Below are positions 30,562 through 56,756 of a DNA stretch of 64,000 nucleotides, piece after piece. The notes beneath the pieces were generated by a model. The model saw only the letters and a list, made by a program, of their open reading frames with translations, did no database searches and had not been told where the DNA came from. The position numbers and the translations under genes were made by a program. Position 1 is the first letter of the stretch. The number at the start of each line of letters is the position of its first letter. The stretch is from Butyrivibrio sp. AE2015 (GTDB taxonomy: Bacteria; Bacillota; Clostridia; Lachnospirales; Lachnospiraceae): assembly GCF_000420825.1 (NCBI RefSeq), contig NZ_ATVR01000003.1, positions 1-64,000 of the forward strand, given 5' to 3'.

Positions 30562-30583
30562 GTAATGTAAAGTGAGGATACGT

Positions 30584-31786
30584 ATGAGAGCAGCAGTTAT
30601 TGGCGCCAGCTCGGAGTCAATTTATACAATTGGAAAAGCAAAAGAAATGGGCATTGAAGTGGTTGCCCTTGACGGAGATCCTAGTGCTCCGGGACTTAAG
30701 GCAGCTGATAAGTCCTTTGTCGTAGACATAAGAGATGTGGAAAAAGTCCTGGAAGTACTTGATGAAAACAGGCCGGATGTGATCTTACCGGTGCCCATCG
30801 GAAGGTACCTTACAACTACAGGAGCTGTCAATGATCACTACGGACTTTGCGGTGTTTCAGAGCATGCAGCAAAGCTTTGCACTGATAAATATGAGTTTCA
30901 CAGAATCTTAAGTGAGAGAGGGCTCAGAAATGCGGAGTTGTATCTCATTCCTGCAGGGTGTGAGTACAGCGACCCGGATGAGCTCAATGAGCAGTACCCG
31001 GTGGTGGTTAAGCCCAGATTTGGCTCAGGAAGCAGAGGGGTTCAGATCTACAACACGAAAGAAGACCTGGTAAAGGGCTTTTTACTGGAAATGCCATATG
31101 ATGAGGATTACTGCATTGAAAGCTGTATAGAAGGCCCTGAATATGGAGTTGATGGCGTATTCACTGACGGGATCTTTCATCTGATCCTTCTTAGAGGTAA
31201 AAGAAATACACTTCCTCCTTACAGGGAATGTGTGGGCTACTATTCTGTAATCGAAGATGAGGACAACAAAGCCTTTTTTGAAAAGGTAAAAGACCTTATG
31301 CAGAAGACAGGAGAGGCCCTGGGCTTTAAGAATAACCTTATCCACGCTGATATCATCAAAGACGAAAATGGAAAGCCATTTATCATTGAGACATCAGCAA
31401 GACCATCGGGCCATAATCTTCACAATCTCTTTACCCCAATGGCAAGCGGAGTGGACGAGGTTGTAGAGTTCATAAAGTATGCCCTTCCTGATCTTGGAAG
31501 AAGATATGTTTTTGAACCCAATGTTAAAAAACATATGATCATCAGATATTTTGATTTTGAAAATGTCAGAGTAAATAAAGTGCCGGAGGAGAGGCTCCTT
31601 AAGGAGAAATATCCTCTGAAGGCATGGAATTGCAATATAGAAAAGGGCATGACCCTTGGAAAAGTGACAAATGGGGCTTCAATTATGGGAAGAGGCTTCT
31701 TTGTACTTGAAGGTTCATCAAAAGAGGAACTTGACCGTTTGTGTGATGAGATAAAGAGCGAGTTTGAAGTGGAGGAAATAGGGTGA
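30584..31786 (+). CDS. ATP-grasp ligase in the nonulosonic acid block
   Basis: 400 residues. A pre-ATP-grasp domain (AVIGASSESIYTIGKAKEM) is followed by the ATP-grasp core: VVVKPRFGSGSRGV for nucleotide binding and HADIIKDENGKPFIIE with ETSARPSGH for metal, where the usual third residue Asn is Ser. Family members join a carboxylate, often an amino acid, to an amine using ATP. An in-frame GTG at 30572 lies inside the AAGTGAGGA that serves the ATG at 30584. It overlaps the cytidylyltransferase fusion by four bases, so ligation of an amino acid to a nonulosonic acid or its precursor is a reasonable inference. Confidence 0.85.
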   Translation: MRAAVIGASSESIYTIGKAKEMGIEVVALDGDPSAPGLKAADKSFVVDIRDVEKVLEVLDENRPDVILPVPIGRYLTTTGAVNDHYGLCGVSEHAAKLCTDKYEFHRILSERGLRNAELYLIPAGCEYSDPDELNEQYPVVVKPRFGSGSRGVQIYNTKEDLVKGFLLEMPYDEDYCIESCIEGPEYGVDGVFTDGIFHLILLRGKRNTLPPYRECVGYYSVIEDEDNKAFFEKVKDLMQKTGEALGFKNNLIHADIIKDENGKPFIIETSARPSGHNLHNLFTPMASGVDEVVEFIKYALPDLGRRYVFEPNVKKHMIIRYFDFENVRVNKVPEERLLKEKYPLKAWNCNIEKGMTLGKVTNGASIMGRGFFVLEGSSKEELDRLCDEIKSEFEVEEIG

Positions 31787-33711
31787 CTAGCGTTGCAATT
31801 ATTACAGCCAGGGGCGGAAGCAAAAGAATCCCCGGAAAGAACATAAAGGAATTTTGTGGAAAACCCATAATTGCATATTCAATATCTGCTGCTATTGAAA
31901 GCGGAGCATTTGATGAAGTAATGGTCTCAACTGATGATGAGGCCATAGCTGAAGTTGCCAAAAAGGCAGGAGCAAAGGTTCCATTTATGAGGTCCAATGA
32001 GACTTCAGGCGATTTTGCAACAACAGATGAAGTTATCGCTGAAGTCCTAGGTGCCTATAAAGAAAGAGGCAAGGAGTTTGACAGATTCTGCTGCATTTAC
32101 CCAACAGCTCCTTTTATTACGGCCCAGAGGCTCTCAGAAGCCATGAAGTGCCTTGATACCCACGAATCAGTTACACCTGTTACACAGTTTTCCTATCCTC
32201 CACAGAGAGGCTTTGTTATAGAAAACGAGAGGCTGGTGAGGAAATATCCTGAGTTCGCGACAACCAGATCTCAGGACCTTGAAAAGCTCTATCACGACAG
32301 CGGCCAGTTCTATGCTTGCAGAACAGATGCCTTTTTCAGGGATAACACAACAGACGTTGATGATATGGTCCCTGTTATCTTGAGCGAAGATGAAGTTCAG
32401 GATATAGATACCTTTGAGGACTGGAGAATTGCCGAGGAGAAGTTTAAAGCTCTCAGGGCAAAAAAGGAAAGAGCAGCTAGCGATGAGCATAGGCTCTTTG
32501 ATGACGCCTCATTAAAAACACCTTATTATAGGATTGATGAAAGTGCTCTTGATGCGGATATCAATATGCTGAAAACCGCACTGCAGAGCAGCTGGAACAA
32601 TTACATCTGTTCTTATTCAGTAAAGACTAACTCCCTTCCATGGCTCCTTGCCCACTTTAGGGATAACGGCTTTTTTGCTGAGGTCGTTTCAAAGGAAGAG
32701 TACGAATTATCCAGAATAATAGGCTTTAGAGCCTCTGATATTATCTATAACGGACCTATTAAGGACAAGGATACCTTTAGGGAAGTTCTTTTAAATGGTG
32801 GTCTTGTAAATATGGACTCAAGCTATGAGCCAGAATGGTTAAAAGAGCTGGCAGAGTCCCACCCTGATAAGACTTTTAACGTAGGTGTCAGGGTAAATTA
32901 TGACATAGCAAAGCTTATTCCTGATGAAGTCCTGGCAGATGAAGAGGGAAGCAGGTTTGGCTATTGCTATGAAAACGGAGAGCTTGAAAAGGTAATAAAC
33001 AAGATCAAAGCTCTTTCAAACGTAAGAGTCGCAGGACTCCACCTTCATTCATCAACAAAATCAAGGTCTACTGAGGCTTATAAAGCTCTGGCCAAAGTCG
33101 CTGTCTTTGTGGCAAAAGAGTATGACCTTTCACTTGACTATGTGGATATGGGAGGCGGCTACTACGGCGGAGTAGAAGGAAAGCCTGACTTTAGAGATTA
33201 TGTACCTGAAATAGCAGGAGTTCTTTCAGAGTATTTTGATGTAAATAAGACAAAACTTGTTATGGAACCCGGTGTATCGATGGTTTCATCAAGCTTTAAT
33301 TTTGTGACAAGTGTTATTGATACAAAGGACGTAAGAGAGCACAGATACGTAATAATTGACGGAAGCAGAGTCAATATGAATCCTCAGGTTACCAGAAGAT
33401 GGTATCCACACAGGCTTGAGTATAAGGGAAAAGAGACTGACAGAGCCCTCATCCCATCACAGATGGTCTGCGGTTCTACCTGCATGGAATATGACAGAAT
33501 GTTCCCAGTTGAAAATGCTGGTGAGTTAAAGGCAGGAGACAGAGTAGTGTTTACAAATGCTGGCGGTTATACAGTCTGCCTTACACCACTTTTTATACAC
33601 TATTTTCCTGCGGTATATGTAAAAAAGAGTGATGGTTCTTTTTACGAAGCAAGAAGTCCATGGACTAACGAGGAATTCATGATGAGGAACCATTTCCAGG
33701 AGGGAATCTAA
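31783..33711 (+). CDS. Fusion: CMP-nonulosonate cytidylyltransferase + PLP amino-acid decarboxylase
   Basis: 642 residues in one uninterrupted frame. Residues 1-230 are a PseF/NeuA-like cytidylyltransferase (IITARGGSKRIPGKNIK, VSTDDEAIAEVA, YHDSGQFYACR) that would activate a nonulosonic acid with CTP. Residues about 246-642 are an alanine-racemase-fold decarboxylase of the Orn/DAP/Arg group: PLP lysine Lys281 in SYSVKTN, glycine loop MGGGYYGG, and GSTCMEYD with Cys567. A charged linker joins the halves. GTG start, with GGAGG at 31771. The decarboxylase substrate is unknown; position beside an ATP-grasp ligase suggests it makes or trims an amino-acid substituent. Confidence 0.88.
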   Translation: MTSVAIITARGGSKRIPGKNIKEFCGKPIIAYSISAAIESGAFDEVMVSTDDEAIAEVAKKAGAKVPFMRSNETSGDFATTDEVIAEVLGAYKERGKEFDRFCCIYPTAPFITAQRLSEAMKCLDTHESVTPVTQFSYPPQRGFVIENERLVRKYPEFATTRSQDLEKLYHDSGQFYACRTDAFFRDNTTDVDDMVPVILSEDEVQDIDTFEDWRIAEEKFKALRAKKERAASDEHRLFDDASLKTPYYRIDESALDADINMLKTALQSSWNNYICSYSVKTNSLPWLLAHFRDNGFFAEVVSKEEYELSRIIGFRASDIIYNGPIKDKDTFREVLLNGGLVNMDSSYEPEWLKELAESHPDKTFNVGVRVNYDIAKLIPDEVLADEEGSRFGYCYENGELEKVINKIKALSNVRVAGLHLHSSTKSRSTEAYKALAKVAVFVAKEYDLSLDYVDMGGGYYGGVEGKPDFRDYVPEIAGVLSEYFDVNKTKLVMEPGVSMVSSSFNFVTSVIDTKDVREHRYVIIDGSRVNMNPQVTRRWYPHRLEYKGKETDRALIPSQMVCGSTCMEYDRMFPVENAGELKAGDRVVFTNAGGYTVCLTPLFIHYFPAVYVKKSDGSFYEARSPWTNEEFMMRNHFQEGI

Positions 33712-34785
33712 ATGCCCAGATTTGAATTAAATCAGAGGATAAAGCTTGCTGATCACTACATTGGCAAGGACGACCCTGTGTATATCGTTGCTGAGATGTC
33801 AGCAAACCATAATAATGATTTCAACAGAGCAATTGAGATAATACATGCGGCAAAAGAGGCAGGAGCAGATGCAGTAAAGCTTCAGACCTACACAGCCGAC
33901 ACAATGACAATTGACAGTGACAAGAGCTATTTCCAGATAGATGGCGGAACCCTTTGGGATGGAAAGACACTTTACAAGCTCTATCAGGAAGCCTATACAC
34001 CATGGGAGTGGCAGCCAAGGCTTATGGAAGAAGCCAACAAGCTTGGTATGGACTGTTTTTCAACTCCTTTTGATAAGACTTCCCTTGATTTTGTGGAAGC
34101 GATGAACATGCCTGCCATTAAGATCGCATCCTATGAGATCACGGATATTCCCCTCATAAGGCTCTGCGCAGCCAAAAAGAAGCCTATGATCCTGGCAACA
34201 GGCGTGGCAAGGATGGACGACATCAGACTTGCGATTGAGGCCTGCCTTCAGGAAGGCAATAAGGACATCATTTTACTTAAGTGTGTTTCAGCTTATCCAA
34301 CGCCTTACGAGGACGTTAACCTCAATATGATCCAGGGGCTTTCTGATGAATATGGCTGTATCATGGGCCTTTCTGACCATACAATGGGAGGAACCGTTCC
34401 TACAGCAGCAGTAGCTCTTGGAGCCAGAATGGTTGAGAAACACTTGACACTTAGAAGAGCAGATGGCGGAGCAGACAGCGCTTTTTCAATGGAGCCTGAA
34501 GAGTTCGCCGATATGGTAAAGAGCATCAGAATAGTCGAAAAAGCCCTTGGAAGCAGGGATTATAAACTCACTCCATTCCAGGAAAAGGAAAGAGAAGGAG
34601 CGAGATCTCTTTTCATAGTTGAGGATATCAAAAAGGGAGAGGCACTTACCCCTGAAAACATAAGGTCCATAAGACCTCAGCAGGGAAATGGCCTTCCTCC
34701 TGTAGAGTATGATAATGTAATAGGTAAGATAGCTTCAAAAGATTTGTTTAGAGGTGAACCACTTCACAAAGAAGATTTTTGCTGA
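33712..34785 (+). CDS. Nonulosonic acid synthase, PseI/NeuB family
   Basis: 357 residues. A TIM-barrel NeuB domain (IVAEMSANHNNDFNRA, AGADAVKLQTYTADTM, STPFDKTSLDF) condenses phosphoenolpyruvate with a six-carbon diamino sugar. A C-terminal SAF antifreeze-like domain (about 295-357, RSIRPQQGNGLPP) completes it. The KLQTYTADTMT wording is closer to PseI (pseudaminic) than to sialic acid synthase. The ATG follows directly on the stop of the fusion gene, with GGAGG just upstream. Confidence 0.9.
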   Translation: MPRFELNQRIKLADHYIGKDDPVYIVAEMSANHNNDFNRAIEIIHAAKEAGADAVKLQTYTADTMTIDSDKSYFQIDGGTLWDGKTLYKLYQEAYTPWEWQPRLMEEANKLGMDCFSTPFDKTSLDFVEAMNMPAIKIASYEITDIPLIRLCAAKKKPMILATGVARMDDIRLAIEACLQEGNKDIILLKCVSAYPTPYEDVNLNMIQGLSDEYGCIMGLSDHTMGGTVPTAAVALGARMVEKHLTLRRADGGADSAFSMEPEEFADMVKSIRIVEKALGSRDYKLTPFQEKEREGARSLFIVEDIKKGEALTPENIRSIRPQQGNGLPPVEYDNVIGKIASKDLFRGEPLHKEDFC

Positions 34786-34797
34786 TATGGAGGCATA

Positions 34798-35883
34798 ATG
34801 GGAAGCAAAAAGATCTGGATCAAAACAAATGCAAATGAAACAATCGCCCTTGGCCACATGCGAAGATGCATGACTATTGCAAAAGAGCTTACTGACCTTG
34901 GCGCAGACGTTTTTTTTATTCTGTCTGATGAAGAGAGCCATGATATTTTGACCTCTTTGTCCCAAAAGGATGGAGTAAGCTATGAGGCAAGAGTCCTGAA
35001 TACAATCTTTGCTAATCCCATGGAGGATTTCAAGGTTTTAGAGGATATGCTTGTTTCAGAAAATCCGGATTTCTTTTTAATGGACTCCTATTATCTTGAA
35101 AAAGAGTTTTTTGATAAGTTAAACAAGATAATTAAAAAACATTCGTTATCCACAAAAACCGGATATATAGATGATCTCTACAAGTTTGATTATCCGGTTG
35201 ATATGGTAATAAATTATGATCTTGAGATTCCGGATGGATTTTACAGCGCAAAAAAGCAGCTTCTTGGAGTTAAGTATTCGCCCCTTAGAAGTCAGTTTGC
35301 AAAGAGCGACTACGAAGTAAGGGAGCATGCAAGAAAGGCTTTCCTTTCATCTGGTGGGACCGACCCATATCATGTGATAGGAAATATTCTTGAAGAGATA
35401 TATTCTGAGAACAGCCCATGCAGAAAGGTGCTTGCTTACAACGATTTTGGATGCCTTGTCATTGTGGGAGACCTTTTTGATGAGGATTATAAAAAGCAAT
35501 TAAGAGACTTTGCTGCAGCAAATCCGTCAGTTACCCTGTATGAAGGCGTTTCAGATATGGCTGATATCATGAAGCAGGCAGATCTTGCAATTTCCGCAGG
35601 AGGAACCACGCTTTATGAACTCTGTGCAATCGGCGTTCCGACTGTGGTCTTTAGCATGGCAGACAATCAGATGGAATTTGTAAAGGCCTTTGATAAGGCC
35701 GGAGCAGTAAGGTATGCAGGAGATGCCAGAAGTGACCACAGGCTGGTTCAGAAAATAGCTACCTGGGGCACAGCATCTGTTGATAATAAAGGCTTTAGGA
35801 AAAGAATGAGCGATAAAGCTAGAAATCTTATAGATGGCAAGGGGGCATCAAGAATTGCCCGGGAGATTTTGGAGTTGTTATGA
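34798..35883 (+). CDS. PseG-like UDP-sugar hydrolase
   Basis: 361 residues, GT-B-like fold. IALGHMRRCMTIAKEL near the N terminus contains the family His (His20), and the C-terminal AGGTTLYELCAIGVPTV is characteristic of PseG, which releases UDP from UDP-2,4-diacetamido-2,4,6-trideoxy-altrose. With the synthase and cytidylyltransferase this gives the last three steps to a CMP-pseudaminic-like acid. Overlaps the next gene by four bases (ATGA). TGGAGG precedes the ATG. Confidence 0.87.
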   Translation: MGSKKIWIKTNANETIALGHMRRCMTIAKELTDLGADVFFILSDEESHDILTSLSQKDGVSYEARVLNTIFANPMEDFKVLEDMLVSENPDFFLMDSYYLEKEFFDKLNKIIKKHSLSTKTGYIDDLYKFDYPVDMVINYDLEIPDGFYSAKKQLLGVKYSPLRSQFAKSDYEVREHARKAFLSSGGTDPYHVIGNILEEIYSENSPCRKVLAYNDFGCLVIVGDLFDEDYKKQLRDFAAANPSVTLYEGVSDMADIMKQADLAISAGGTTLYELCAIGVPTVVFSMADNQMEFVKAFDKAGAVRYAGDARSDHRLVQKIATWGTASVDNKGFRKRMSDKARNLIDGKGASRIAREILELL

Positions 35884-36944
35884 AACTTAGTATTATAGTG
35901 CCTGTTTACAATATGGCCGGAGACGGAAAACTGGATTTTTGCTTAAAAAGTCTGGTGAATCAGACAATTTCAGATTATGAGATCATAGCGGTTGATGACT
36001 GCTCTACAGACAATTCCTATGAGATATTGCAGCAGTTCCAAAGAGATTATCCAGGCAGATTCATAGCTGTTCATTCACCTGTTAACCTTCACCAGGGCGG
36101 AGCCAAGAACATTGGCCTTGCCAGGGCAAAGGGAGAGTGGCTTGGCTTTATTGATGCGGATGACTGGATTGTTCCTGATTATTACGAGAGACTTATAAAA
36201 AGAGCCGAGGAAACAGGGGCAGACATGGTTGGATGTGACTACTGTCTCACAGATGAACACAGCTTTAAAGTTGGGAAGATAGTCCACAGCAACAATGATA
36301 CGCAAACAGGCCTTATGGATAAACAGCGCTATAAAAACCTTCTTCTTGAAACCGGAAGCCTTGTAGTAAAGGTTTATAAAAGAAACCTTATAGTTGGAGA
36401 TTATGAGCCGGGAACCAAGGACAAGCTTCAGGTGTTCCCTGAAAATATTTTTTATGAAGACAACGCCGTAAGTAATACCTGGATGCTCAGGTCCAAGCAC
36501 TTTGAGTACATACCAGAGCCAATGTATTTTTACTACCAGCATCAGGCATCAACTGTCCACAGTATTTCTAAAAAGAATCTTGAAGACAGAATGAGCGCCG
36601 GAAGGCAGATAATACAGGAAGCCAGGGATAATGGCTATTTTGAGGACTATAAGCCAGAGATAGAATTTCAGTATACAGTGTTATTTTATGTTAATACATT
36701 ATTCTCAGCTATGCCAAAACAGTCCAGGCTAAAAGGGTGTTACTCTTTTACCAGAGCAATTGCAAAAGAAATGAAGGAAACATTTCCGAATTTTCAAGAT
36801 AATCCATACTATATAGAAAAAATCCACCCTGAGGAGAAAAAGCTTATAGCTTATCAAATGAAATCACAGCTGTTTTTTTATCTATACTACAGACTGCTTT
36901 GGTTCTACAGGAAATTAAGAAGCGGAAAAAAAGAATTGAAATGA
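35880..36944 (+). CDS. GT2 family glycosyltransferase
   Basis: 354 residues. Canonical GT-A motifs: IIVPVYNMAGDGK, AVDDCSTDNS and FIDADDWIVPDYY. The C-terminal third is helical with a hydrophobic, aromatic stretch (LFFYLYYRLLWFYRKL) that may bind the membrane. Coupled by ATGA overlaps at both ends to the PseG-like gene and the GT52-like gene, so it likely builds the same glycan. Confidence 0.89.
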   Translation: MKLSIIVPVYNMAGDGKLDFCLKSLVNQTISDYEIIAVDDCSTDNSYEILQQFQRDYPGRFIAVHSPVNLHQGGAKNIGLARAKGEWLGFIDADDWIVPDYYERLIKRAEETGADMVGCDYCLTDEHSFKVGKIVHSNNDTQTGLMDKQRYKNLLLETGSLVVKVYKRNLIVGDYEPGTKDKLQVFPENIFYEDNAVSNTWMLRSKHFEYIPEPMYFYYQHQASTVHSISKKNLEDRMSAGRQIIQEARDNGYFEDYKPEIEFQYTVLFYVNTLFSAMPKQSRLKGCYSFTRAIAKEMKETFPNFQDNPYYIEKIHPEEKKLIAYQMKSQLFFYLYYRLLWFYRKLRSGKKELK

Positions 36945-38011
36945 AAGACAGAATATATGTATGCCACACCTTTTATCATGTGTATGTGGCTTGTTTAAAG
37001 GAATTTCAGATTGCAGACGGTGGAAAGGCCACTTTGGTGCTATCCAAGATGTCCAATAATTTCGGCAAAATGGTGGAGAGAGCTAAAAAGAGCCCCATAT
37101 TTGACGAAGTTTACGAATACGATGAAAAGCTTGATACTTTTTTTCCTGAGCTTGCGCCTCTTAAGGAAAACTCCGGTAACATCGCAATAAATATGCTTAA
37201 AAGGATAAAGTTCTGCAGAAGGTTTGGCCAGCTCCAGGAGCAGTATGTACCTGTGGACTTTAAGGATTATAAGGAAATCTATGTTTTCTGTGATTCCGAT
37301 CCTATAGGGTATTACCTGAATTATAAAAAGATAAGGTACCATGCCCTTGAGGATGGTCTTGACTGCATAAGATACTATGACACTGCAAGGTACGATAACA
37401 GAGGCCACTTTAAGTTTAAGGCCTTTATGGCATCCCTTGGACTTATCCACATTCAAAATGGCTATGGAAGATTTTGCATCGATATGGAAGTAAATGATAT
37501 ATCCGTGCTTAAATACCCATGCCCTAAGTATGTGGAACTTCCAAGAAAGACCTTAACTGACAGGTTAACTCAACAAGAAAAGAACCTTATGCTGGAGCTT
37601 TTTGTGGATAACCCAAAAGAAATTCAGGAAAAAGTGGAAGGAAAGGGAAAAACTCTCCTTGTTTTATCGGAACCTTTATGTGACCTTGACACGAGGGCTA
37701 AAATATTTAAGGATATTATTCGTGATTATGGAACAATAAATGGTCAAAAAGCAAGCGTTATTATAAAACAACATCCAAGAGATCTGTTGGATTACAAGAA
37801 GGAATTTCCTGATGCTTGCCTTCTTGATGGTTCTTTTCCAATGGAAATGTTAAACTTCATTGAGAACGTTAGATTTGACAGACTTGTCTCTGTATACACA
37901 GTTGTTGATTCCATTCAATTTGTGGATGAGAAGATTTATCTTGGAGATGACTTCATGGACAAATATGAAGCTCCTGAGATACACAGACAGAATGAGGCTA
38001 TAACAGATTAA
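36941..38011 (+). CDS. GT52/polysialyltransferase-like enzyme, candidate nonulosonate transferase
   Basis: 356 residues. The start IYVCHTFYHVYVACLKE matches the opening of GT52 and related sialyl- or polysialyltransferases, and the later IIKQHPRDLLDYKKEF corresponds to their conserved HPR block. Such enzymes use CMP-activated acids. It lies directly downstream of CMP-nonulosonate genes, which supports the assignment. The family call is from pattern memory only. An in-frame upstream ATG at 36899 lies within the previous gene; the ATGA overlap at 36941 is preferred. Confidence 0.7.
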   Translation: MKDRIYVCHTFYHVYVACLKEFQIADGGKATLVLSKMSNNFGKMVERAKKSPIFDEVYEYDEKLDTFFPELAPLKENSGNIAINMLKRIKFCRRFGQLQEQYVPVDFKDYKEIYVFCDSDPIGYYLNYKKIRYHALEDGLDCIRYYDTARYDNRGHFKFKAFMASLGLIHIQNGYGRFCIDMEVNDISVLKYPCPKYVELPRKTLTDRLTQQEKNLMLELFVDNPKEIQEKVEGKGKTLLVLSEPLCDLDTRAKIFKDIIRDYGTINGQKASVIIKQHPRDLLDYKKEFPDACLLDGSFPMEMLNFIENVRFDRLVSVYTVVDSIQFVDEKIYLGDDFMDKYEAPEIHRQNEAITD

Positions 38012-38031: not shown

Positions 38032-39780
38032 ATGCGTAAGATTTACAAAAAGGTTATGAAGCTCCTTGATGCCAGACAAAAGAGGCAGATGGTGGGCATA
38101 GTTATAATGATGCTTATAGGTGGTGTTCTTGAATCCATGGGAATAGCTCTTATAGCTCCTGTTATGCAGGTGGTTGTTGACCCTGAGCAGATCCAGAAGA
38201 GCAAGGCGCTCTCATTTATTTATAACCTGTTTGGTTTCACATCTCCAACACAGCTGGCAGCTCTTATTATGGTAATGCTCATTCTTGTGTTTATAGTTAA
38301 GAACGTTTTCCTTTACTTCATGAATGTTGTGCAGCTCAGATTTGTATATACCAATCAGTTTGCCACATCAAGGCGCATGATGATCAACTTCATGCAAAGA
38401 CCTTATGAGTACTATTTAAATGCTGACACAAGTGTCATTCAGAGAAACATAACCTCTGATGTTAATAACATGTATGGCCTTATCCTCAGCAGCCTTCAGC
38501 TTATCAGTGAGATAATCGTATTCATCTGTCTCGTAGCTATCCTTATCAGCCAGGATGCAGAGATGACAATTACGATCGCAGCACTTCTTGTGGTTGTATT
38601 ACTTGTCATCAAATATTTTATCAAACCTGTTATGACCAAGGCAGGACAGGAGAATCAGGATTACTACAGCGGACTTTATAAGTGGATCGATGAATCTGTT
38701 ACAGGTATAAAAGAGATCAAGATTGCCAATAAAGAAAACTATTTCATTAACGGATATGCAGACTGTGGAGCAGGCTATGTAAATGCTGTTCAGAAGTATA
38801 ACCTTTATAATTCAACACCAAGGCTTTTGATAGAGACTATTGCTATTGCAGGAATGGTTGGATATATGCTTGTTGTTATGGCAAGAGGAACAAGTCTCAC
38901 ACAGCTCCTTCCACAGCTTACAGTCCTTGCAGCTGCTGCAGCAAGACTTCTTCCAAGCGCTAACAGAATTAACAACTACCTGACTTCAATTGCTTATTTT
39001 GAGCCTTTCCTTATGAATGTAAGTGACAATCTTCAGATGGAGATCCATGATGGCTCAATTTCATATAACAGTGACGATTACAGGAAAAAGAAAGAAGTTG
39101 AAAAGCTCCCTGTGCTTAAGAGCATCAACCTCGATAAGATATCCTATAGATACCCTGGAACTGACAAGCTAATTCTTGACAATGCCGACATGGAGATACC
39201 TGTTGGAAAGTCAGTTGGTATCGTTGGAACATCAGGCGCCGGAAAGACAACTATCGTTGATGTTATGCTTGGACTTTTAAAGCCTGTTAGTGGCCACATC
39301 TATGCCGATGGCGTTGACGTAATGGAGCATTATCCACAGTGGCTTAAAAACATTGGATACATTCCTCAGACAATCTTTATGATCGATTCAACTATCAGAA
39401 AAAATGTAGCTTTTGGCTACGCTGATGACGAAATTGATGACAACAAGGTATGGCAGGCTCTTAAAGAGGCATCACTTGACGAATTCGTAAGAAGCCTTCC
39501 TGAGGGTCTCAATACCAAGATAGGAGAGCGAGGAATCAGACTTTCAGGTGGACAGAGACAGAGAATCGGCATTGCCAGAGCTCTTTTTGAGGACCCTGAG
39601 GTACTTGTTCTTGATGAGGCAACATCTGCCCTTGATAATGAAACAGAGGCAGCAATCATGGATTCAATCAACCGCCTCCATGGCAGAAAGACTCTTGTTA
39701 TCATTGCGCATAGGCTTCAGACTATTGAAAAATGTGATATGGTTTACAGCATAAATGACGGAAAGGCCGTGATCAAATGA
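38032..39780 (+). CDS. ABC exporter (transmembrane + ATPase), PglK/MsbA-like flippase
   Basis: 582 residues. Six membrane helices (about 20-330) are followed by an ATPase with Walker A GTSGAGKTT (about 399-407), the Q-loop YIPQTIF, signature LSGGQ (about 504-508), Walker B VLVLDEAT and the switch His in IIAHRLQT. The half-transporter layout would dimerise. With no Wzx-like protein recognised in the window, it is a good candidate for flipping a lipid-linked oligosaccharide. Overlaps the next gene by four bases. Confidence 0.9.
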   Translation: MRKIYKKVMKLLDARQKRQMVGIVIMMLIGGVLESMGIALIAPVMQVVVDPEQIQKSKALSFIYNLFGFTSPTQLAALIMVMLILVFIVKNVFLYFMNVVQLRFVYTNQFATSRRMMINFMQRPYEYYLNADTSVIQRNITSDVNNMYGLILSSLQLISEIIVFICLVAILISQDAEMTITIAALLVVVLLVIKYFIKPVMTKAGQENQDYYSGLYKWIDESVTGIKEIKIANKENYFINGYADCGAGYVNAVQKYNLYNSTPRLLIETIAIAGMVGYMLVVMARGTSLTQLLPQLTVLAAAAARLLPSANRINNYLTSIAYFEPFLMNVSDNLQMEIHDGSISYNSDDYRKKKEVEKLPVLKSINLDKISYRYPGTDKLILDNADMEIPVGKSVGIVGTSGAGKTTIVDVMLGLLKPVSGHIYADGVDVMEHYPQWLKNIGYIPQTIFMIDSTIRKNVAFGYADDEIDDNKVWQALKEASLDEFVRSLPEGLNTKIGERGIRLSGGQRQRIGIARALFEDPEVLVLDEATSALDNETEAAIMDSINRLHGRKTLVIIAHRLQTIEKCDMVYSINDGKAVIK

Positions 39781-43123: not shown

Positions 43124-44260
43124 ATGAGAATCAATTTTAATGTTCCGCCATTTACAGGAAAAGAGTTTGACTATATTAAAGAGTGTGTAGAAGCTCAGAA
43201 AATTTGCGGAGATGGTAAGTATACAGCTCTTGATAATGAATGGATAGAAAAGAAGACCGGAGTATCTAAGGCGCTTCTTACTACATCCTGTACACATGCA
43301 ACAGAAATGGCTGCTATTCTTGCAGGAATAAAAGAGGGCGATGAAGTTATCATGCCTTCATTTACTTTTGTTTCAACTGCTAATGCATTTGCTCTTAGAG
43401 GAGCCAAGATAGTATTTGTGGACATCAGACCTGATACCATGAATATTGATGAGACCAAGATCGAAGCAGCCATCACAGAAAAAACAAGAGCGATCGTACC
43501 TGTTCATTATGCAGGTGTAGGCTGTGAAATGGATACTATCATGGACATAGCAAAGCGCCATAACCTCCTTGTTATTGAGGATGCAGCCCAGGGCGTAATG
43601 TCTACATACAAGGGTAAGGCACTTGGAGCTATCGGTGACTTTGGTAACTACAGTTTCCATGAAACTAAAAACTATAGCATGGGTGAAGGTGGAGCACTCC
43701 TCTTAAAAGATGAAACCTATGTTGATGATGCGATCATTATCAGAGAAAAAGGTACTAATCGTACACTTTACAAACTTGGTAAGGTTGATAAATACAGCTG
43801 GATCGAGCTTGGATCTTCATATCTTCCAAGTGATATGAACGCAGCATATCTCTATGCTCAGCTTCAGCTTGCAGATGAGATAAATAATAACAGATTAAGA
43901 TCATGGAACAGGTATTATGATGCTTTCAGAGATATGGCTGAAAAGGGACTTATCGAGCTTCCTTATGTGCCTTCTGAGTGTGTTCACAATGCTCACATGT
44001 TCTATATCAAGTGTAAGGACTTTGAAGAGAGACAGGGCCTTATCGATTACCTTAAATCCAATGATATTCTACCTGCTTCTCACTATATTCCGCTCCACTC
44101 TTCCAAGGCAGGACTCCGCTTCAGTGAGTTCAGGGGAGAGGATAAATACACTACCAAAGAGAGCGAGAGACTCCTTCGTCTTCCTATGTATTACAATCTT
44201 AAGGATGAAGACCTTGACGAAGTTGTTATGAGGGTAAAGGAGTACTATAGATTTACTTAA
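43124..44260 (+). CDS. wecE: dTDP-4-amino-4,6-dideoxygalactose transaminase
   Basis: 378 residues. Very close in motif order to E. coli WecE: PPFTGKEFDYI, CGDGKYT, SCTHATEMAA, PSFTFVSTANAFALRGA and FHETKNYSMGEGG, where Lys in HETKN holds PLP. It aminates dTDP-4-keto-6-deoxyglucose. That precursor needs RmlA/RmlB, not in the window, though rmlD at 10008 implies they exist. The leader contains a small CTTTC–GAAAG hairpin; AAAGG precedes the ATG. Confidence 0.92.
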   Translation: MRINFNVPPFTGKEFDYIKECVEAQKICGDGKYTALDNEWIEKKTGVSKALLTTSCTHATEMAAILAGIKEGDEVIMPSFTFVSTANAFALRGAKIVFVDIRPDTMNIDETKIEAAITEKTRAIVPVHYAGVGCEMDTIMDIAKRHNLLVIEDAAQGVMSTYKGKALGAIGDFGNYSFHETKNYSMGEGGALLLKDETYVDDAIIIREKGTNRTLYKLGKVDKYSWIELGSSYLPSDMNAAYLYAQLQLADEINNNRLRSWNRYYDAFRDMAEKGLIELPYVPSECVHNAHMFYIKCKDFEERQGLIDYLKSNDILPASHYIPLHSSKAGLRFSEFRGEDKYTTKESERLLRLPMYYNLKDEDLDEVVMRVKEYYRFT

Positions 44261-44275
44261 ATTTGGAGTCAGACT

Positions 44276-46039
44276 ATGGGGAATACATCAAAAAGCTTAA
44301 ATATAAAAGGGAGTGCAGCAGCTGCTTTCCTTGTTATGCTCTTTAATGCTATTGGTGGCGACTACTTTTTTGACTTAAACGATGATGTCCTTATGAAGGA
44401 TATACTCTCCGGCGCTTATACAGGTGTGCCGGAGGGACACAATATACAGATGCTGTATCCGATAAGCGCCTTTATTTCTGTACTTTACAGAGTATCAGGC
44501 GCTCTTGACTGGTACGGCATCTTTTTATGTTTGCTCCAGGCTCTTTGCGTATTTATCATTACTTACAAAGTGCTTGAATTTGCAGAAGATTATAAGCTTT
44601 GGCTATTGTCTCTTGTTTCAATCATATTTATGATGCTGGGGGTAGTAGGGGCACACTTCTTGTTTGTTCAGTATACTTTCACTTGCGGCTTTTTATCGGC
44701 AACAGCTGTTATCTTAATTTTCTCTCACAGGGAAAAAGACAAAAATCTGTATTTGGCAGCTGTACTCATAGCAGTAGCATATTTACTTCGCTCGGAGATG
44801 CTTCTTTTGACACTTCCTGTTGTAATGGTGGGAATGCTGATAAAATGGGCACTTACAAGAAAAGAGTTCTTAAATTACTTGAAACTCCTTGTTTCTATCA
44901 TACTTATAATTGTCGTAAGTCAGGGCATCCACAAAATAGCCTATTCATCTGCTGACTGGAAGGATTTTACAGATCTTTTCAACGCCAGGACTGAGCTCTA
45001 TGATTTTCAGTATATTCCTGATTACGCTGAGAATAAGGAGTTCTATGATAGCATTGGTCTTTCCGAGAGCGAGCAGCAGTTACTTGTAAACTACAATTTT
45101 GGACTTGATGATGAGATAAATGCAGATACTCTTTGGGCTGTTGCTGAGTATGCAGATAAGCTTAAGACTGATGAGATCCCGCTCCCTGCGCAGCTTCGTC
45201 AGGCAGCAGGCAAGTATTTATACAGACTAAGGCAGATTTCTTTTCAAAAGAGCTTTGAATATCCAATGACAGATTTTCCGTGGAATATTGCAGCGTTCAT
45301 TTTGTACCTTGGAGTCCTGTTAATGTATCTTTTCCCTAAAAATACGAGGGAAAATAAAACCGCGCTTTTGGCAGTTGCTTTGATGGCTCTTTTATTTGCG
45401 TGCAGGACAACACTTTGGCTTTATATAATCGTACGAGGAAGAGACCCTATAAGGATCACACACCCGCTTTATCTTATGGAGATTGTAGTTCTTTTGGAAA
45501 TGCTGTATTTAAGGGCGCCAAAGAGCCTTAAGATAGCCATGGTAACACTAACTGTGCTTGCGCTTGTTTCCTTTGCGTCAATTCCTAATCAGATATTTGT
45601 TTTAAAATCTGAGATGGCTTCCAGAGAAAAAATGCGTCAGCATTATGATGCGCTCTATGACTATTTTGCAGACAACAAGGATAACTTTTATTTTATAGAT
45701 GTTTACACAAGTGTTTCCTGTGGCGAAGATATGGTGGAAGGAGAGACATTCTTTTCAGAAAAAATGTTTAAGAATGTGGATAACTCCTATGCCAATCATG
45801 ATCTTATGGGAGGCTGGGCTTCAAAGAGCCCACTTACAGCCAAAAAATTCAGAGCCTTTGGCTTTGATTCCATGCAGGATGCGATACTTCTTGATAATGT
45901 ATACATAGTTCAGAATAAGTCTGAGGATATAAAATGGCTATCTGACTATTACATTGAGAAAGGCTATGATATTCAGATCATAAATGTGGACACAGTTGCT
46001 GACGCTTTTGGAGTCTACAAGGTCAGACTGGCTGAATAA
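44276..46039 (+). CDS. Large membrane protein, GT-C-like, unknown
   Basis: 587 residues with about ten hydrophobic segments and a C-terminal soluble domain (about 450-587). The first loop has DLNDDVLMKDILSG and then PEGHNIQMLYP, an acidic pair in GT-C position. I recall no named family. The neighbours WecE and a GNAT make an acylated 4-amino sugar, so this could transfer that sugar from a lipid carrier. GGAGT precedes the ATG. Its stop touches the frame of the GNAT gene. Confidence 0.75.
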   Translation: MGNTSKSLNIKGSAAAAFLVMLFNAIGGDYFFDLNDDVLMKDILSGAYTGVPEGHNIQMLYPISAFISVLYRVSGALDWYGIFLCLLQALCVFIITYKVLEFAEDYKLWLLSLVSIIFMMLGVVGAHFLFVQYTFTCGFLSATAVILIFSHREKDKNLYLAAVLIAVAYLLRSEMLLLTLPVVMVGMLIKWALTRKEFLNYLKLLVSIILIIVVSQGIHKIAYSSADWKDFTDLFNARTELYDFQYIPDYAENKEFYDSIGLSESEQQLLVNYNFGLDDEINADTLWAVAEYADKLKTDEIPLPAQLRQAAGKYLYRLRQISFQKSFEYPMTDFPWNIAAFILYLGVLLMYLFPKNTRENKTALLAVALMALLFACRTTLWLYIIVRGRDPIRITHPLYLMEIVVLLEMLYLRAPKSLKIAMVTLTVLALVSFASIPNQIFVLKSEMASREKMRQHYDALYDYFADNKDNFYFIDVYTSVSCGEDMVEGETFFSEKMFKNVDNSYANHDLMGGWASKSPLTAKKFRAFGFDSMQDAILLDNVYIVQNKSEDIKWLSDYYIEKGYDIQIINVDTVADAFGVYKVRLAE

Positions 46040-46071
46040 TGTATCAAAAATGTTTTTATTGGAGAAAAGAG

Positions 46072-46587
46072 ATGTTGATTGCCGGGGAAAAGGTGACTCT
46101 GCGCCTTATGACAAGAGAAGATACTGACCTTATCGTTAAGTGGCGAAACAACCCCAGAGTCAGGGACAATTTTGTTTACCGTGAGACATTTACTAATGAG
46201 ATCCACGAGAACTGGATAAAGACAAAGGTTGAGACAGGAGAAGTTGTTCAGCTTATAATATGTGAGAAGAACAATAATGCCCGTCCTGTTGGAAGTGTCT
46301 ACTTTAGGGATATTGATAATGAGGCACACAGCGCGGAGTATGGTATATTTATTGGAGAGGATGATGCCATTGGAAAGGGCTATGGCAATGAGACTGCTGT
46401 CCTGGCGACCAGATATGCAAGGCAGGAGCTGGGACTTACAAAGCTTATCCTCAGAGTATTTACCTACAATGAGGCAGCGATTAAGAGCTACGAGCATGCG
46501 GGCTTTGTTAAGGTAAAAGATCTCCCACTGGTTGAATGCAGTGATGGGGAGAAAAGTGATATGATACTTATGGAGCAAAAAATATGA
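46072..46587 (+). CDS. GNAT N-acetyltransferase, WecD/PseH-like
   Basis: 171 residues. The GNAT fold is visible: RLMTREDTDLIVKWRNNP at the start, the acetyl-CoA loop DDAIGKGYGNETA (Q/RxxGxG/A-like), and YNEAAIKSYEHAGF near the end. Relatives acetylate amino-sugar nucleotides. With wecE two genes upstream, acetylation of a dTDP-4-amino sugar is likely; a PseH-like role in the nonulosonic acid path is an alternative. A start at 46039 is in frame, but GGAGAA before the ATG at 46072 favours the shorter form. Overlaps the next gene. Confidence 0.85.
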   Translation: MLIAGEKVTLRLMTREDTDLIVKWRNNPRVRDNFVYRETFTNEIHENWIKTKVETGEVVQLIICEKNNNARPVGSVYFRDIDNEAHSAEYGIFIGEDDAIGKGYGNETAVLATRYARQELGLTKLILRVFTYNEAAIKSYEHAGFVKVKDLPLVECSDGEKSDMILMEQKI

Positions 46588-49303: not shown

Positions 49304-51928
49304 ATGAGAAAAGTTATAGATAAAAAAACAGCATGCAGAGTGGTAGTACTCTTATTGGCTCTTTTAGCCGTGCTTAGCATATTCCCGTTTAGAATTTGGA
49401 CAAAAGTCGACAGCTTCTCTGCAGGAGGAGAGATTGTTGATCAGTCCGGGATGATCAACATTGAATCCAGACTGTCCCAGAAATTTGTTACCCAGTATGA
49501 ACGACTGAGCTCAATTGATGTTTATGTGACTTCAATGAATAAAGGCAGATATTTGGGTGTGACTTTAATGGACAAGTACTACGGGGAACTGTTTTATGCC
49601 TATGTAGATACTTCCAAATATCAGCTTCCTGGTTATGTGACAATTCCTATCGAGTATGATGTTGAAGTAGGAGAAGAGTATTACTTATCTCTCACAGGAT
49701 GCAGGTCAAACTTTAATCTGGCCTTTGAGACAGTGCCTGATACATCTGCATATGTAGGCAGCTTGTATTTTAATGGACAGGAGATTCCTGCCCGTCATTT
49801 AGCTGCTACCTACAATTACAGACTTCCGATTTCAAAGTCACTTTCAGTAGAACTTATAGCAGGAATCGCAGGTTTGGCGATTATACTGTATGTTTTGACA
49901 GGTTTATATTTCAGAAAAAAACCTGAAAAGAATTCGCTTGTTACAGTAAGACAGGCACTAAAGACAGTGGCCAATCCGCTTATTGTGCTGGTATTTGGCG
50001 CACTTATGATAATGGTATTTCCTTTAAGACTCTTTGATATGAGAGCTGTGGATATCATTTTTTATGAGATAGGTCTTCTGATCAGCGCGGGAATTGCTTT
50101 TTATGCTGTTAATCACAAAAGCATTAAGCAAAGTGTTGGTGTATCATTCTGGGATGAAATAGATCCTAAGAGCAAAGTGGTCTATATACTTATGATGTTT
50201 TCAATGGCAATGGCCATCTGGTATGCCTGCGATTATATGAATGATCTCTATGATATTTACCACACTTTATCAGAGAGAAGGATGCTCATATGGCTCCTTG
50301 TTATGATCATTCTTACACTCAGCTTCAAAGAGCTCATTAATATATGTAATATTGTATGGCTCGTCGGATCAGTTATATATGGAGTTCATTACTATCAGGT
50401 CAACGCACTTGCGGATACTGAAAAAGAATATGATCTTCACAATATGATCCTTAAATATGGAATTATTATTGTGATCCTTGGAGGCATACTTGTACTTAAC
50501 TTACTAAGGCTCATAGCAGGATATATTAAAAAGAAAATTTCCGGTGGAGACAAAAATGGGGCCAAAGGTTTCAGACTTTCTCCATATGGAATTCTTGTGT
50601 TGGTATTTCTTGCTTCAATCGTCATTATGCGAAATACCAGATGGTGGGGAGTAGCACTGGCAGTAACTTTTACCTGCCTGTACATAAGATTGTCAGTCTG
50701 GAAAAACAGGAAAGACTTTATAAAAATCGTATCTGGCGGACTTATGATGAACTTTGCGATTTCACTTGTATTTAGCCTGTTGCATCGCTATTTTGCGGGT
50801 TTTGTAAGTGGTCGCTTTGGATTCCTTTTCCACACAGTCACAGTAACTGCTGAATATTTCACTTTCCTGGGAGCTGTGGCAGCAGTTCTTTTGACAGCGA
50901 AAATAGTAGCACTTCCTGATGGAATAGGTATTAAGCAGGTGATAAAATCTGCCTGGAAAGAAATAGTGCTCTTTGGATGGATAGCGTCTTATGCTGTATT
51001 TACAGTATCAAGAACAGCTTATCTTGCTATGGGAGTGTGTATTTTACTGGTGCTTGTAGTAACAGCAATCAGATATAAGGGTGAGTTTTTCAGGATGCTT
51101 CTGGTCATGATAGTGTCAGTTATTGTATGCTTCCCTGCTGCTTTTACGCTTCAGAGAATTGTACCTGCTATGGTTGCAAGACCTGTGGTATATGCAATTG
51201 ACGACACTGATCAGTTTATTAGAGGCGGAGCGGCCTGGAACAGTCCGAACTTCATGTGCGTTGAGAGATTTGCCAATCTTTTTGCGGGTAAGATTCTTGG
51301 AATTTCGGTTGGCGACTATAGTTATCCTATAGACATTAACAACTTTGATCCTGAAACCGGTGATCCATATTTTGATTTTTATGGCAACGAATATGAGGGC
51401 AGTGATGAGCAGCAGCAAAAGTATGGCTTTGTAACTGACTATGACAGAGACGGGCTTTTGGCCAGTGCTGCTATGACCAGGGCTGAACTTGCAATACTGA
51501 TGCTCACAGAGGAAGTCAATGAGTATGTTGATTCCTCTAACATAATTGATGTACTTTCAAACGGCCGTATCACTATATTCAAGTCCTATCTAAAAGAGCT
51601 GAATCTTAAGGGACATGACGAAATGGGAGCTGAGCTTCCAAATGGAGAAATAGCTGTACATGCTCACAACACCTATATACAGGTTGCTTATGACCATGGC
51701 ATTATTGTAGGCATACTGTTTATTTTGTTTGTGATCTGCGGTATTATTACCGGAGTTTCATATTACAAAAAAGAGAAGAAAGAACCTTTGGCCCTTATGC
51801 CATTTGCAGTTTTACTCGGATTTGCAGTTGCAGGTATTAGTGAATGGGTATTTATGTTCAGCAATCCTATGACACTTGCTCTGATGCTTTCAATTGCGCC
51901 ACTACTATTTGAAAAAAAGGCAAAATAA
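49304..51928 (+). CDS. O-antigen ligase/polymerase-like membrane protein with extracellular N-terminal domain
   Basis: 874 residues, long for the family. After one membrane helix (about 10-28) comes an extracytoplasmic, beta-rich domain (about 30-180), then about twelve helices. The C-terminal part has SRTAYLAMGVCI and, after a long outer loop, HAHNTYIQVAYDHG (about 785-800), the signature region of WaaL/Wzy-type proteins. It may polymerise or attach the glycan built by the surrounding genes. It ends one base before the PglF-like ATG. Confidence 0.8.
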   Translation: MRKVIDKKTACRVVVLLLALLAVLSIFPFRIWTKVDSFSAGGEIVDQSGMINIESRLSQKFVTQYERLSSIDVYVTSMNKGRYLGVTLMDKYYGELFYAYVDTSKYQLPGYVTIPIEYDVEVGEEYYLSLTGCRSNFNLAFETVPDTSAYVGSLYFNGQEIPARHLAATYNYRLPISKSLSVELIAGIAGLAIILYVLTGLYFRKKPEKNSLVTVRQALKTVANPLIVLVFGALMIMVFPLRLFDMRAVDIIFYEIGLLISAGIAFYAVNHKSIKQSVGVSFWDEIDPKSKVVYILMMFSMAMAIWYACDYMNDLYDIYHTLSERRMLIWLLVMIILTLSFKELINICNIVWLVGSVIYGVHYYQVNALADTEKEYDLHNMILKYGIIIVILGGILVLNLLRLIAGYIKKKISGGDKNGAKGFRLSPYGILVLVFLASIVIMRNTRWWGVALAVTFTCLYIRLSVWKNRKDFIKIVSGGLMMNFAISLVFSLLHRYFAGFVSGRFGFLFHTVTVTAEYFTFLGAVAAVLLTAKIVALPDGIGIKQVIKSAWKEIVLFGWIASYAVFTVSRTAYLAMGVCILLVLVVTAIRYKGEFFRMLLVMIVSVIVCFPAAFTLQRIVPAMVARPVVYAIDDTDQFIRGGAAWNSPNFMCVERFANLFAGKILGISVGDYSYPIDINNFDPETGDPYFDFYGNEYEGSDEQQQKYGFVTDYDRDGLLASAAMTRAELAILMLTEEVNEYVDSSNIIDVLSNGRITIFKSYLKELNLKGHDEMGAELPNGEIAVHAHNTYIQVAYDHGIIVGILFILFVICGIITGVSYYKKEKKEPLALMPFAVLLGFAVAGISEWVFMFSNPMTLALMLSIAPLLFEKKAK

Positions 51929-51929
51929 A

Positions 51930-53867: not shown

Positions 53868-53882
53868 AGCATTTGCTGAGGT
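53868..53882 (+). repeat. 15-base motif after a stop codon, copy 1
   Basis: AGCATTTGCTGAGGT lies directly after the PglF-like stop and provides the GAGGT ribosome binding site for the aminotransferase. It matches the copies at 55163 and 60273 at 13 of 15 and 11 of 15 positions. Confidence 0.55.
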
Positions 53883-53890
53883 TAGATATC

Positions 53891-55162
53891 ATGGAAATAA
53901 AAAGATTTGAGAAAAAAATATATCTTTCATCTCCTACAATGCATGGAGATGAGCTTAAGTACATGCAGGAAGCTTATGAAACCAACTGGATGTCAACTGT
54001 TGGAGCCAATATCAATGAGACTGAGAGACTTGTATCAGAAAAGATCGGCTGCAAGGACGCTGTAGCTCTTTCCTGCGGAACAGCAGCTCTTCATCTTGCA
54101 ATTAAGCTTGCAGGAGAAAGACTTTATGGACAGCCAAAGGTTGGACATGGAAGCCTCGAGGGCAGAAAAGTATTTTGTTCAGATATGACATTTGACGCAA
54201 CAGTAAATCCTGTTGCTTACGAAGGTGGCGAGGCAGTATATATCGATACTGAAAGAGATACCTGGAACATGGATCCGGTGGCTCTTAAGAAAGCTTTTGA
54301 GATTTATCCTGAAGTAAAACTTGTAGTAATTGCGCACCTTTATGGCACTCCGGGCAAAGTAGATGAGATCAGAAAGATCTGCGATGCTCATGGTGCTCTT
54401 ATAGTTGAGGATGCCGCAGAGTCTTTTGGTGCAACATATAAGGGACAGCAGACAGGACTTTTTGGCGATTACAGTGTTATCTCTTTTAACGGGAACAAGA
54501 TAATCACAGGATCAGCAGGCGGAATGTTCCTGACAAATAATGTAGATGATGCCCACAAGGTTCGTAAGTGGTCAACTCAGTCTAGAGAAGACGCAGCGTG
54601 GTATCAGCATGAGGAGCTTGGATTTAACTACCGCATGAGCAATGTAATTGCAGGCGTAGTAAGAGGCCAGATGCCATACCTTGAAGAGCACATCGCGCAA
54701 AAGAAAGCCATCTACGAGAGATACAAAGAGGGTTTCAAGGATCTTCCTGTTACAATGAATCCATTTGACGCCGAGAACAGTGAGCCTAATTTCTGGCTCT
54801 CATGTATTCTTATCAATGAAGATGCAATGTGCAAGCAGGTTCGAGGAGAAAAAGATGTTCTCTATGTTTCAGAACCTGGAAAGAGCTGCCCTACAGAAAT
54901 TCTTGAAGCAATCGCAGCTATTAATGCTGAAGGCCGCCCTATCTGGAAGCCAATGCATATGCAGCCTATCTACCGCATGAATGGCTTTGTGACTGCAACA
55001 GGAAACGGGCGAGCAAGAAGTAATGCCTACATCAAGGAGACAGGCTTTGAGGATGTTGGAAGCGACATCTTTGACAGAGGACTTTGCCTTCCAAGCGACA
55101 ACAAGATGACCCCTGAGCAGCAGGATGTGATCATCGAAGTTGTTAAGAGATGTTTTGAGTAG
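53891..55162 (+). CDS. PglE-like UDP-4-keto sugar aminotransferase
   Basis: 423 residues, DegT/DnrJ/EryC1 family. Motifs include LSSPTMHGDELKYM, SCGTAALHLA, VEDAAESFGATYKG and FNGNKIITGSAGG, where the Lys of NGNK binds PLP. An insertion near 315-360 with IWKPMHMQPIY is typical of PglE-type enzymes. It should aminate the PglF-like product at C4. The ATG at 53891 is eight bases after GAGGT; an upstream in-frame start at 53873 has no binding site. Confidence 0.92.
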   Translation: MEIKRFEKKIYLSSPTMHGDELKYMQEAYETNWMSTVGANINETERLVSEKIGCKDAVALSCGTAALHLAIKLAGERLYGQPKVGHGSLEGRKVFCSDMTFDATVNPVAYEGGEAVYIDTERDTWNMDPVALKKAFEIYPEVKLVVIAHLYGTPGKVDEIRKICDAHGALIVEDAAESFGATYKGQQTGLFGDYSVISFNGNKIITGSAGGMFLTNNVDDAHKVRKWSTQSREDAAWYQHEELGFNYRMSNVIAGVVRGQMPYLEEHIAQKKAIYERYKEGFKDLPVTMNPFDAENSEPNFWLSCILINEDAMCKQVRGEKDVLYVSEPGKSCPTEILEAIAAINAEGRPIWKPMHMQPIYRMNGFVTATGNGRARSNAYIKETGFEDVGSDIFDRGLCLPSDNKMTPEQQDVIIEVVKRCFE

Positions 55163-55177: not shown

Positions 55178-55182
55178 ATTTT

Positions 55183-56753: not shown

Positions 56754-56756
56754 AGC

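Follow-up and report, generated by a model that had tools for sequence, protein, structure and literature searches.

The acyl groups of nonulosonic acids determine their charge, their antigenicity, and how lectins and phages recognize them. In the canonical pseudaminic acid pathway, which comprises PseB, PseC, PseH, PseG, PseI, and PseF, the N-acylation step belongs to PseH. In butirosin biosynthesis, the ATP-grasp ligase BtrJ joins Glu by its side chain to an acyl carrier protein, and the tethered residue is then decarboxylated by the fold-type-III enzyme BtrK; FslC and SbnH, like BtrK, act on an amino acid that is already joined to something else. We analyzed a 64,000-nucleotide stretch of Butyrivibrio sp. 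AE2015 (the window: contig NZ_ATVR01000003.1, positions 1 to 64,000 of the forward strand, assembly GCF_000420825.1; the genome has 3,711,555 bases in 73 contigs). Its gene string at 30584-38011 pairs an ATP-grasp ligase (ATPG) with a protein in which PseF is fused to a pyridoxal 5'-phosphate (PLP) decarboxylase, whose decarboxylase half is called DC below. We propose that ATPG replaces PseH and ligates the side chain of Glu or Asp to a UDP-sugar, and that DC then decarboxylates the attached residue to give an omega-aminoacyl pseudaminic acid; we give this scheme an even chance of being right. The gene string consists of the following features.

30584-31786, + strand: ATP-grasp ligase ATPG (PF13535, 52.3 bits; cut-off 27)
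31783-32454, + strand: PseF half of the fusion, CMP-pseudaminic acid cytidylyltransferase domain, residues 1-224 (TIGR03584)
32455-33711, + strand: DC half of the fusion, fold-type-III PLP decarboxylase (PF02784/PF00278; K281, H420, H422, E495, C567, D571, Y596)
33712-34785, + strand: PseI, pseudaminic acid synthase (TIGR03586, 467.4 bits, over the cut-off of 340.25)
34798-35883, + strand: PseG-like UDP-sugar hydrolase (TIGR03590, 153.0 bits, marginally below the cut-off of 153.55)
35880-36944, + strand: glycosyltransferase family 2 (PF00535, 119.4 bits)
36944-38011, + strand: GT52/polysialyltransferase-like protein (PF07922, 55.9 bits; PF07388, 24.3 bits)

We compared the neighborhoods of pseF in 79 genomes of the genus, among them that of the window. 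The regions around 78 PseF hits of 75 genomes, with the window region taken in, were used as loci, and their open reading frames (ORFs) within 6.5 kb of PseF were scored with profiles whose seeds came from some of these loci. The other four genomes had no match (G034, G051) or weak matches only (G040, G068), and weaker PseF-like matches (roughly 40% identity or lower) were not counted among the 78. An ATP-grasp gene was present at 40 of the 78 loci and a PseH-like GNAT gene at 25, while both were present at none and neither at 13 (Fisher's exact p = 3e-11 for the exclusion, which overstates the evidence because the loci share ancestry). Since the N-acylation slot is filled by an ATP-grasp or by an acetyltransferase, never by both, the ATP-grasp appears to do the job of PseH. 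Most likely it acylates the 4-amino UDP-sugar with a group derived from an amino acid, at the nitrogen that becomes C7-N of pseudaminic acid. An earlier note on this DNA had proposed an amino-acid ligase with a linked decarboxylase acting before CMP activation; the comparison supports this proposal and now places the ATP-grasp at the PseH step.

The 40 ATP-grasp loci comprise 21 with DC (20 fused and one separate) and 19 without it (18 with PseI and one without), and DC was accompanied by an ATP-grasp at all 21 loci that have it. No GNAT was found within 6.5 kb of the fusion in the window. PseF is fused to an acylating GNAT in some species and to DC in others; Pfam recognized PseF-GNAT fusions in two species (G063 and G064; L204:8030-9304 and L207:7948-9144). 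The PseH cut-off was passed by none of the 79 genomes, even those with a GNAT beside PseI, and these GNATs are accordingly called PseH-like, not certified PseH. Of the 13 loci with neither gene, 10 lack PseI nearby, at least two of them (L202, L210) lying at contig ends; at the locus of G021, which has PseI nearby, a GNAT lies about 7 kb away. PseG-like proteins of 713 and 702 aa are encoded at two loci having neither gene (L070:7524-9662 and L071:6137-8242, both on the - strand). Their second halves have no Pfam match at E 0.001 and may be another acylating domain.

The fusion itself was examined in both sets of genomes. As the earlier note had read from the letters, one 642-aa frame (31783-33711) holds a PseF-like domain and a complete PLP decarboxylase: TIGR03584 matches residues 4-222 with 281.6 bits, over its curated cut-off of 205.7, and Pfam places Orn_Arg_deC_N plus Orn_DAP_Arg_deC within residues 265-594. 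The PseF half is the sole PF02348 match in its own genome at E 0.001. The 642-codon gene starts with GTG and, in agreement with the note, shares four bases with the ATPG frame. The mechanical ATPG ORF begins at GTG 30572, and ATG 30584 matches the start of aligned relatives. PseI begins at the base directly after the fusion gene, and PseG begins 13 bases past the last base of PseI. The fusion was matched at full length in 20 of the 79 same-genus genomes, its own included, and in one further genome, G018, PseF and DC are separate neighboring ORFs. For the second set, the best 80 of 150 DC relatives from named genomes were kept as loci and their neighbors scored within 7 kb; DC is fused in 23 of them, with B. 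proteoclasticus P18 and B. hungatei DSM 14810 among the strains that carry the fusion, and unfused in 57. The named relatives nearest to the DC of the window belong to Butyrivibrio sp. Su6 (98%) and to P18 (94%). Because it recurs in both sets, the fusion is not due to chance or to a sequencing error, a possibility that the note had raised. An ATPG relative was labeled at every fused locus (23/23 named and 20/20 same-genus), and a relative of the family 2 glycosyltransferase at 22 of the 23 fused named loci, the exception being L105. Among viral contigs, 11 stretches matched a pattern and none of these encodes a DC relative.

DC has the barrel and C-terminal sheet domains, the PLP Lys, and the catalytic Cys of a fold-type-III PLP decarboxylase (PF02784, 94.7 bits with a cut-off of 23.4; PF00278, 32.7 bits with a cut-off of 23). 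Lys281 and Cys567, singled out in the earlier note, stand where the PLP lysine and the catalytic cysteine are expected (K45 and C331 in DC-half numbering). Both are invariant in an alignment of 36 DCs, from which two rows containing a stop had been dropped, as are His420, His422, three glycines, Glu495, Asp571, and Tyr596. The description as Orn/DAP (ornithine/diaminopimelate)-type holds for the fold, but the LysA profile TIGR01048 scored 133.3 bits, below its cut-off of 297.9. By sequence, the best match of known structure was FslC (7kh2, 3.1e-36), followed by DapDC (7e-22) and BtrK (1e-21), and Foldseek placed FslC at ranks 1-4 for the AlphaFold model of DC (mean pLDDT 91.2). DC and FslC are 28% identical and have in common a Cys-Met at the catalytic Cys; the FslC profile NF041039 gave 154.8 bits, below its cut-off of 500. 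None of the 36 DCs has an Arg following the EPG motif or an acidic residue immediately after the catalytic Cys, positions that in DapDC and ornithine decarboxylase presumably contact the distal end of the substrate. Since both are changed throughout, free DAP, Orn, or Lys is unlikely to be the substrate. The Arg is retained in FslC and BtrK in the alignments, indicating that its loss is a trait of the DC group, and the LysA candidate of this genome has Glu after its Cys. Judged by sequence, DC is not LysA, and its nearest characterized relative is an N-citrylornithine decarboxylase, an enzyme acting on a conjugated amino acid.

Decarboxylases of this fold remove the carboxyl on the carbon bearing the free amino group. 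A residue attached by its alpha-carboxyl would leave nothing to remove, so that the residue on the sugar would have to be linked by its side chain or decarboxylated beforehand. In the scheme that we propose, ATPG would take an acidic amino acid, most likely Glu or Asp, and couple its side-chain carboxylate to the amine at position 4 of UDP-4-amino-4,6-dideoxy-L-AltNAc, which PseC makes. DC would then strip the free alpha-carboxyl from the attached residue, so that Glu would end up as a 4-aminobutanoyl amide and Asp as a 3-aminopropanoyl amide. The sugar would next pass through PseG, PseI, and the PseF domain to yield a CMP-pseudaminic acid whose C7-N bears an omega-aminoacyl group with a positive charge, for use in a surface glycan. 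The carrier on which the residue is decarboxylated would be the UDP-sugar, because no acyl carrier protein fits in the gene string: from 30572 to 38011 there is no + strand ORF of at least 60 aa besides the named genes, and the remaining genome was not searched for an acyl carrier protein. The sequences show the genes, their domains and catalytic residues, the fusion, its conservation, and the mutual exclusion described above; we infer all of the activities, the amino acid, its side-chain attachment, and the order of the two steps.

The genes for the acceptor were sought in the same genome. PseC is encoded on the same contig as the fusion (469.2 bits, over the cut-off of 423.5), and the best PseB match scored 297.2 bits, below the cut-off of 407.75.

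L050:17193-19603 with the next ORF, on the contig of the window, some 73 kb past its end: best PseB match, PseB-like dehydratase

The ORF that follows this dehydratase looks CapF/WbjC-like. The dehydratase is probably CapE/FnlA, and its product may also feed PseC.

The ATPG model (mean pLDDT 93.3) was matched best by the L-amino acid ligase 3vot in VIA-align (Z 34.3, rmsd 3.6, 377 aligned residues), followed by 4dim (Z 32.8) and two further L-amino acid ligases, 4wd3 (Z 31.8) and 3wnz (Z 31.6). Foldseek ranked 4dim, which is annotated as phosphoribosylglycinamide synthetase, first. The fold suggests an amino-acid substrate without fixing it.

Several points weigh against the scheme. The exclusion counts are uncorrected for shared ancestry and rest on profiles seeded within the set, and one of the 40 ATP-grasp loci, that of G075, is doubtful, since the ATP-grasp there is related at 67% to the second one of the window (ATPG2) and lies beside a PglC-like fragment. 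Distant DC-like genes of the genus, such as that at L088 (26%), have no ATP-grasp labeled nearby. PurK (9zoi, Z 30.8) matches ATPG nearly as well as the ligases do, and VIA-align ties FslC (Z 39.1) with the DapDC of H. pylori (Z 39.3) for DC. L-amino acid ligases activate the alpha-carboxyl; if ATPG did so, the attached residue could not be alpha-decarboxylated and DC would act first. PseG identity between classes (32-34%) is lower than that of PseI (48-60%) and PseF (59%) among 59 loci of the three main acylation classes (G018, G053, G063, G064, G075, G077, and unclassified loci left out), and this fits a substituent already present at the PseG step; it is weak evidence, consistent with the scheme and not strong, and PseG also varies more within a class (54-65%, compared with 81-86% for PseI and PseF). 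Finally, the genome's best PseH match, a GNAT at 46039-46584 (match 46099-46572; 81.9 bits, below the cut-off of 93.1), could acetylate the sugar. This GNAT lies 14 kb from the fusion locus near a WecE aminotransferase, and in L084 a 67% relative of this GNAT occurs together with a separate GNAT adjoining PseI. Because of its position and because L084 has both GNATs, we assign it to the WecE product. The WecE-type aminotransferase (43124-44260, over its cut-off) and this GNAT form a probable dTDP-Fuc4NAc branch at the same locus.

The strongest alternative reverses the two steps: DC would make free gamma-aminobutyrate (GABA) or beta-alanine from Glu or Asp, and the ATP-grasp would then join the sole carboxylate to the UDP-sugar amine, again replacing PseH. 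The resemblance of the ATPG model to L-amino acid ligases, which act on free amino acids, agrees with this order, as do the 18 loci with PseI that have an ATP-grasp without DC, where ligation alone can be the whole step. Against it, the decarboxylase most closely related to DC acts on a conjugate, and alpha-decarboxylation of Glu and Asp is commonly done by enzymes of other folds, so that a fold-type-III enzyme would be unusual in this role. We regard this order as unlikely, though deserving of serious weight, and prefer ligation before decarboxylation mainly because of the kinship of DC with FslC and BtrK. The earlier note had left open whether the decarboxylase prepares an amine or trims the attached residue. 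The former is now the less supported of the two, since sequence and Foldseek both point to a relative that acts on a conjugate; VIA-align ties that relative with DapDC.

It is improbable that the ATP-grasp acylates the sugar with an amino acid while DC acts on another substrate or serves as a racemase or epimerase supplying a D-amino acid. Alanine racemase has the same N-terminal barrel fold, and the neighbor of ATPG2 is a different PLP enzyme, of the PALP type. DC nevertheless has the catalytic Cys and the C-terminal sheet domain of decarboxylases, and no racemase was among the best 50 VIA-align matches listed for its model. Still less probable is the production of a diamine (cadaverine, putrescine, or similar) by DC and its coupling by the ATP-grasp to the nonulosonic acid carboxylate. 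The fold relatives of DC by VIA-align include Orn, Lys, and Arg decarboxylases, as this reading would expect, but the acidic residue that we take to hold the distal amine is missing in 36/36 DCs, the absence of PseH is left unexplained, and relatives of the pair also occur at bacillosamine-type loci, whose sugar presumably has no carboxylate. A plain LysA accidentally fused to PseF, which the earlier note had named as a way to be wrong, is scarcely credible and already contradicted: its TIGR01048 match of 133.3 bits is far under the cut-off, a better candidate exists in the genome at C7:7074-8285 (273.8 bits, itself below 297.9), and an ATP-grasp lies near the DC relatives in 77 of the 80 named loci.

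Those 77 loci comprise 75 with a strong and two (L145, L158) with a weak ATP-grasp match; none was found within 7 kb at L120, L133, and L152, the last of which stops at the contig end. A GNAT lay within the same distance at one locus only (L156, 6 kb away). By their surroundings, 50 of the 80 are pseudaminic acid loci, 28 lie beside CapD/PglF-, DegT/PglE-, or PglC-like genes, and two (L145, L154) beside neither; 11 loci labeled both ways were counted as pseudaminic acid loci, their second label being attributed to the resemblance of WecE/PseC to DegT2. ATPG and ATPG2 were told apart by identities, as their labels in this scoring came from overlapping seed sets. The second context spans Lysinibacillus, Selenomonas, Clostridium, Fibrobacter, Phocaeicola, and a Riflebacteria genome. 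In the DC tree, one change separates the two contexts in 100% of 200 bootstrap trees; the outgroup branches were saturated and the root unusable. L139, where DC and an ATPG2-type ligase lie beside pseudaminic acid genes, takes a tree row next to the bacillosamine-type group. In a distant genome (G143), L066:8460-9641 encodes a DC relative (33-36%) and an ATPG2-like ligase beside PseI/NeuB-like (37%) and PseF-like (35%) genes; perhaps it is the same chemistry on another nonulosonic acid.

The window has a second module of this kind, in which a PALP-type PLP enzyme stands where other phyla carry DC.

51894-55797, + strand: CapD/PglF-like dehydratase (PF02719), DegT/PglE-like aminotransferase (PF01041), and a gene that we take, from its translation, to be a PglC-like phosphoglycosyl transferase
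55794-57746, + strand: PALP-type PLP enzyme (PF00291) and ATPG2, with a PylC-like N domain (PF21360, PF02655)

Within the genus, an ATPG2-type gene lies within 3.5 kb of 68 of 77 PglC-like matches (those of 229 bits or more plus one fragment). PglD/NeuD at E up to 1e-25 was found within 8 kb of none of the 77, a threshold that weaker acetyltransferases would escape. Gene content thus suggests that an ATP-grasp takes over the role of PglD as well, and in the window would do so without this DC. Some PglD/NeuD match exists in all 30 second-context genomes searched, over the cut-off in 10; these counts cover whole genomes and speak neither for nor against its absence beside the pair. Among the first 25 of 79 families for 73 unlabeled + strand ORFs of 90-330 aa within five genes of DC at second-context loci, Hexapep appeared in two. 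That the ATP-grasp and the FslC-like decarboxylase form a widespread cassette that replaces PseH and PglD, placing GABA or beta-alanyl groups on 4-amino sugars with the nucleotide sugar as carrier, is a tentative extension that we consider somewhat short of an even bet. If it holds, such a cassette would add to the general routes by which sugar amines are capped, and would be a source of cationic surface sugars for bacteria of the gut and rumen in several phyla.

An ATP-grasp without DC occurs at 19 PseF loci of the genus (L069, L072, L173, and L175 among them). Nine aligned ligases of such DC-less loci are 22-25% identical to ATPG, and those of G053 and G075 are ATPG2-like. Undecarboxylated aminoacyl pseudaminic acids are predicted for these loci.

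The string ends in the GT52/polysialyltransferase-like gene, whose product is a candidate pseudaminic acid transferase. It is followed at 38032-39780 by an ORF whose translation we take to be an ABC exporter. Since the glycosyltransferases, the GT52/polysialyltransferase-like gene, and the exporter-like ORF adjoin, the product is likely destined for a surface polysaccharide. Butyrivibrio is also among the genera listed with flagellar O-glycosylation in a recent Clostridium survey, in which N-acylation genes were located through an acetyltransferase domain (PMC13317340). Such an approach would miss the loci described here, or their product would be mistaken for Pse5Ac7Ac. If the scheme is correct, it defines a new class of sugars in common rumen and gut bacteria and gives a concrete role to a decarboxylase family resembling DAP and ornithine decarboxylases.

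In the literature that we searched, with subscription journals mostly outside its reach, no account of this ligase-decarboxylase module was found; nor did the search return a paper pairing pseudaminic acid with an aminobutanoyl group, or an ATP-grasp in papers on bacillosamine, phosphoglycosyl transferases, or aminoacyl sugars. What is new here is the positional finding that ATP-grasp and PseH-like genes are exclusive at same-genus PseF loci. The comparisons are evidence that the module is a variant of the known pseudaminic acid pathway and that the ligase-plus-decarboxylase pair is general.

The closest sugar described is the C. botulinum flagellin sugar Leg5GluNMe7Ac, which carries a 5-(N-methyl-glutam-4-yl)amino group on legionaminic acid (PMC5207245). 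We read glutam-4-yl as a side-chain linkage, although the numbering is not explicit there. This glutamyl group on a nonulosonic acid amine bears out the precedent in Clostridium flagella that the earlier note had cited. It differs from the proposed group in that it sits on C5-N of legionaminic acid, is N-methylated, and is not decarboxylated. In C. difficile, the ATP-grasp CDR20291_0245, which has the same Pfam domain as ATPG (PF13535), is encoded near the type-B flagellin glycan genes, a region suggested for an amino-acid-containing glycan; no nonulosonic acid genes or decarboxylase are mentioned there in the part of the paper available (PMC5207246).

In comparison with the canonical pseudaminic acid pathway, the locus in the window has PseF, PseI, and a PseG-like hydrolase, with PseC elsewhere on the contig, but it has an ATP-grasp instead of a PseH-like gene and a PseF that is fused to a decarboxylase. 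FslC is the closest decarboxylase of known function, yet at 28% identity and from a different pathway. The likeness to BtrJ/BtrK lies in the order of steps, ATP-grasp ligation of Glu by its side chain followed by fold-type-III decarboxylation of the tethered residue, which is that of butirosin and is predicted here. The two would differ in the carrier, which is an acyl carrier protein in the butirosin pathway and would be a nucleotide sugar in Butyrivibrio.

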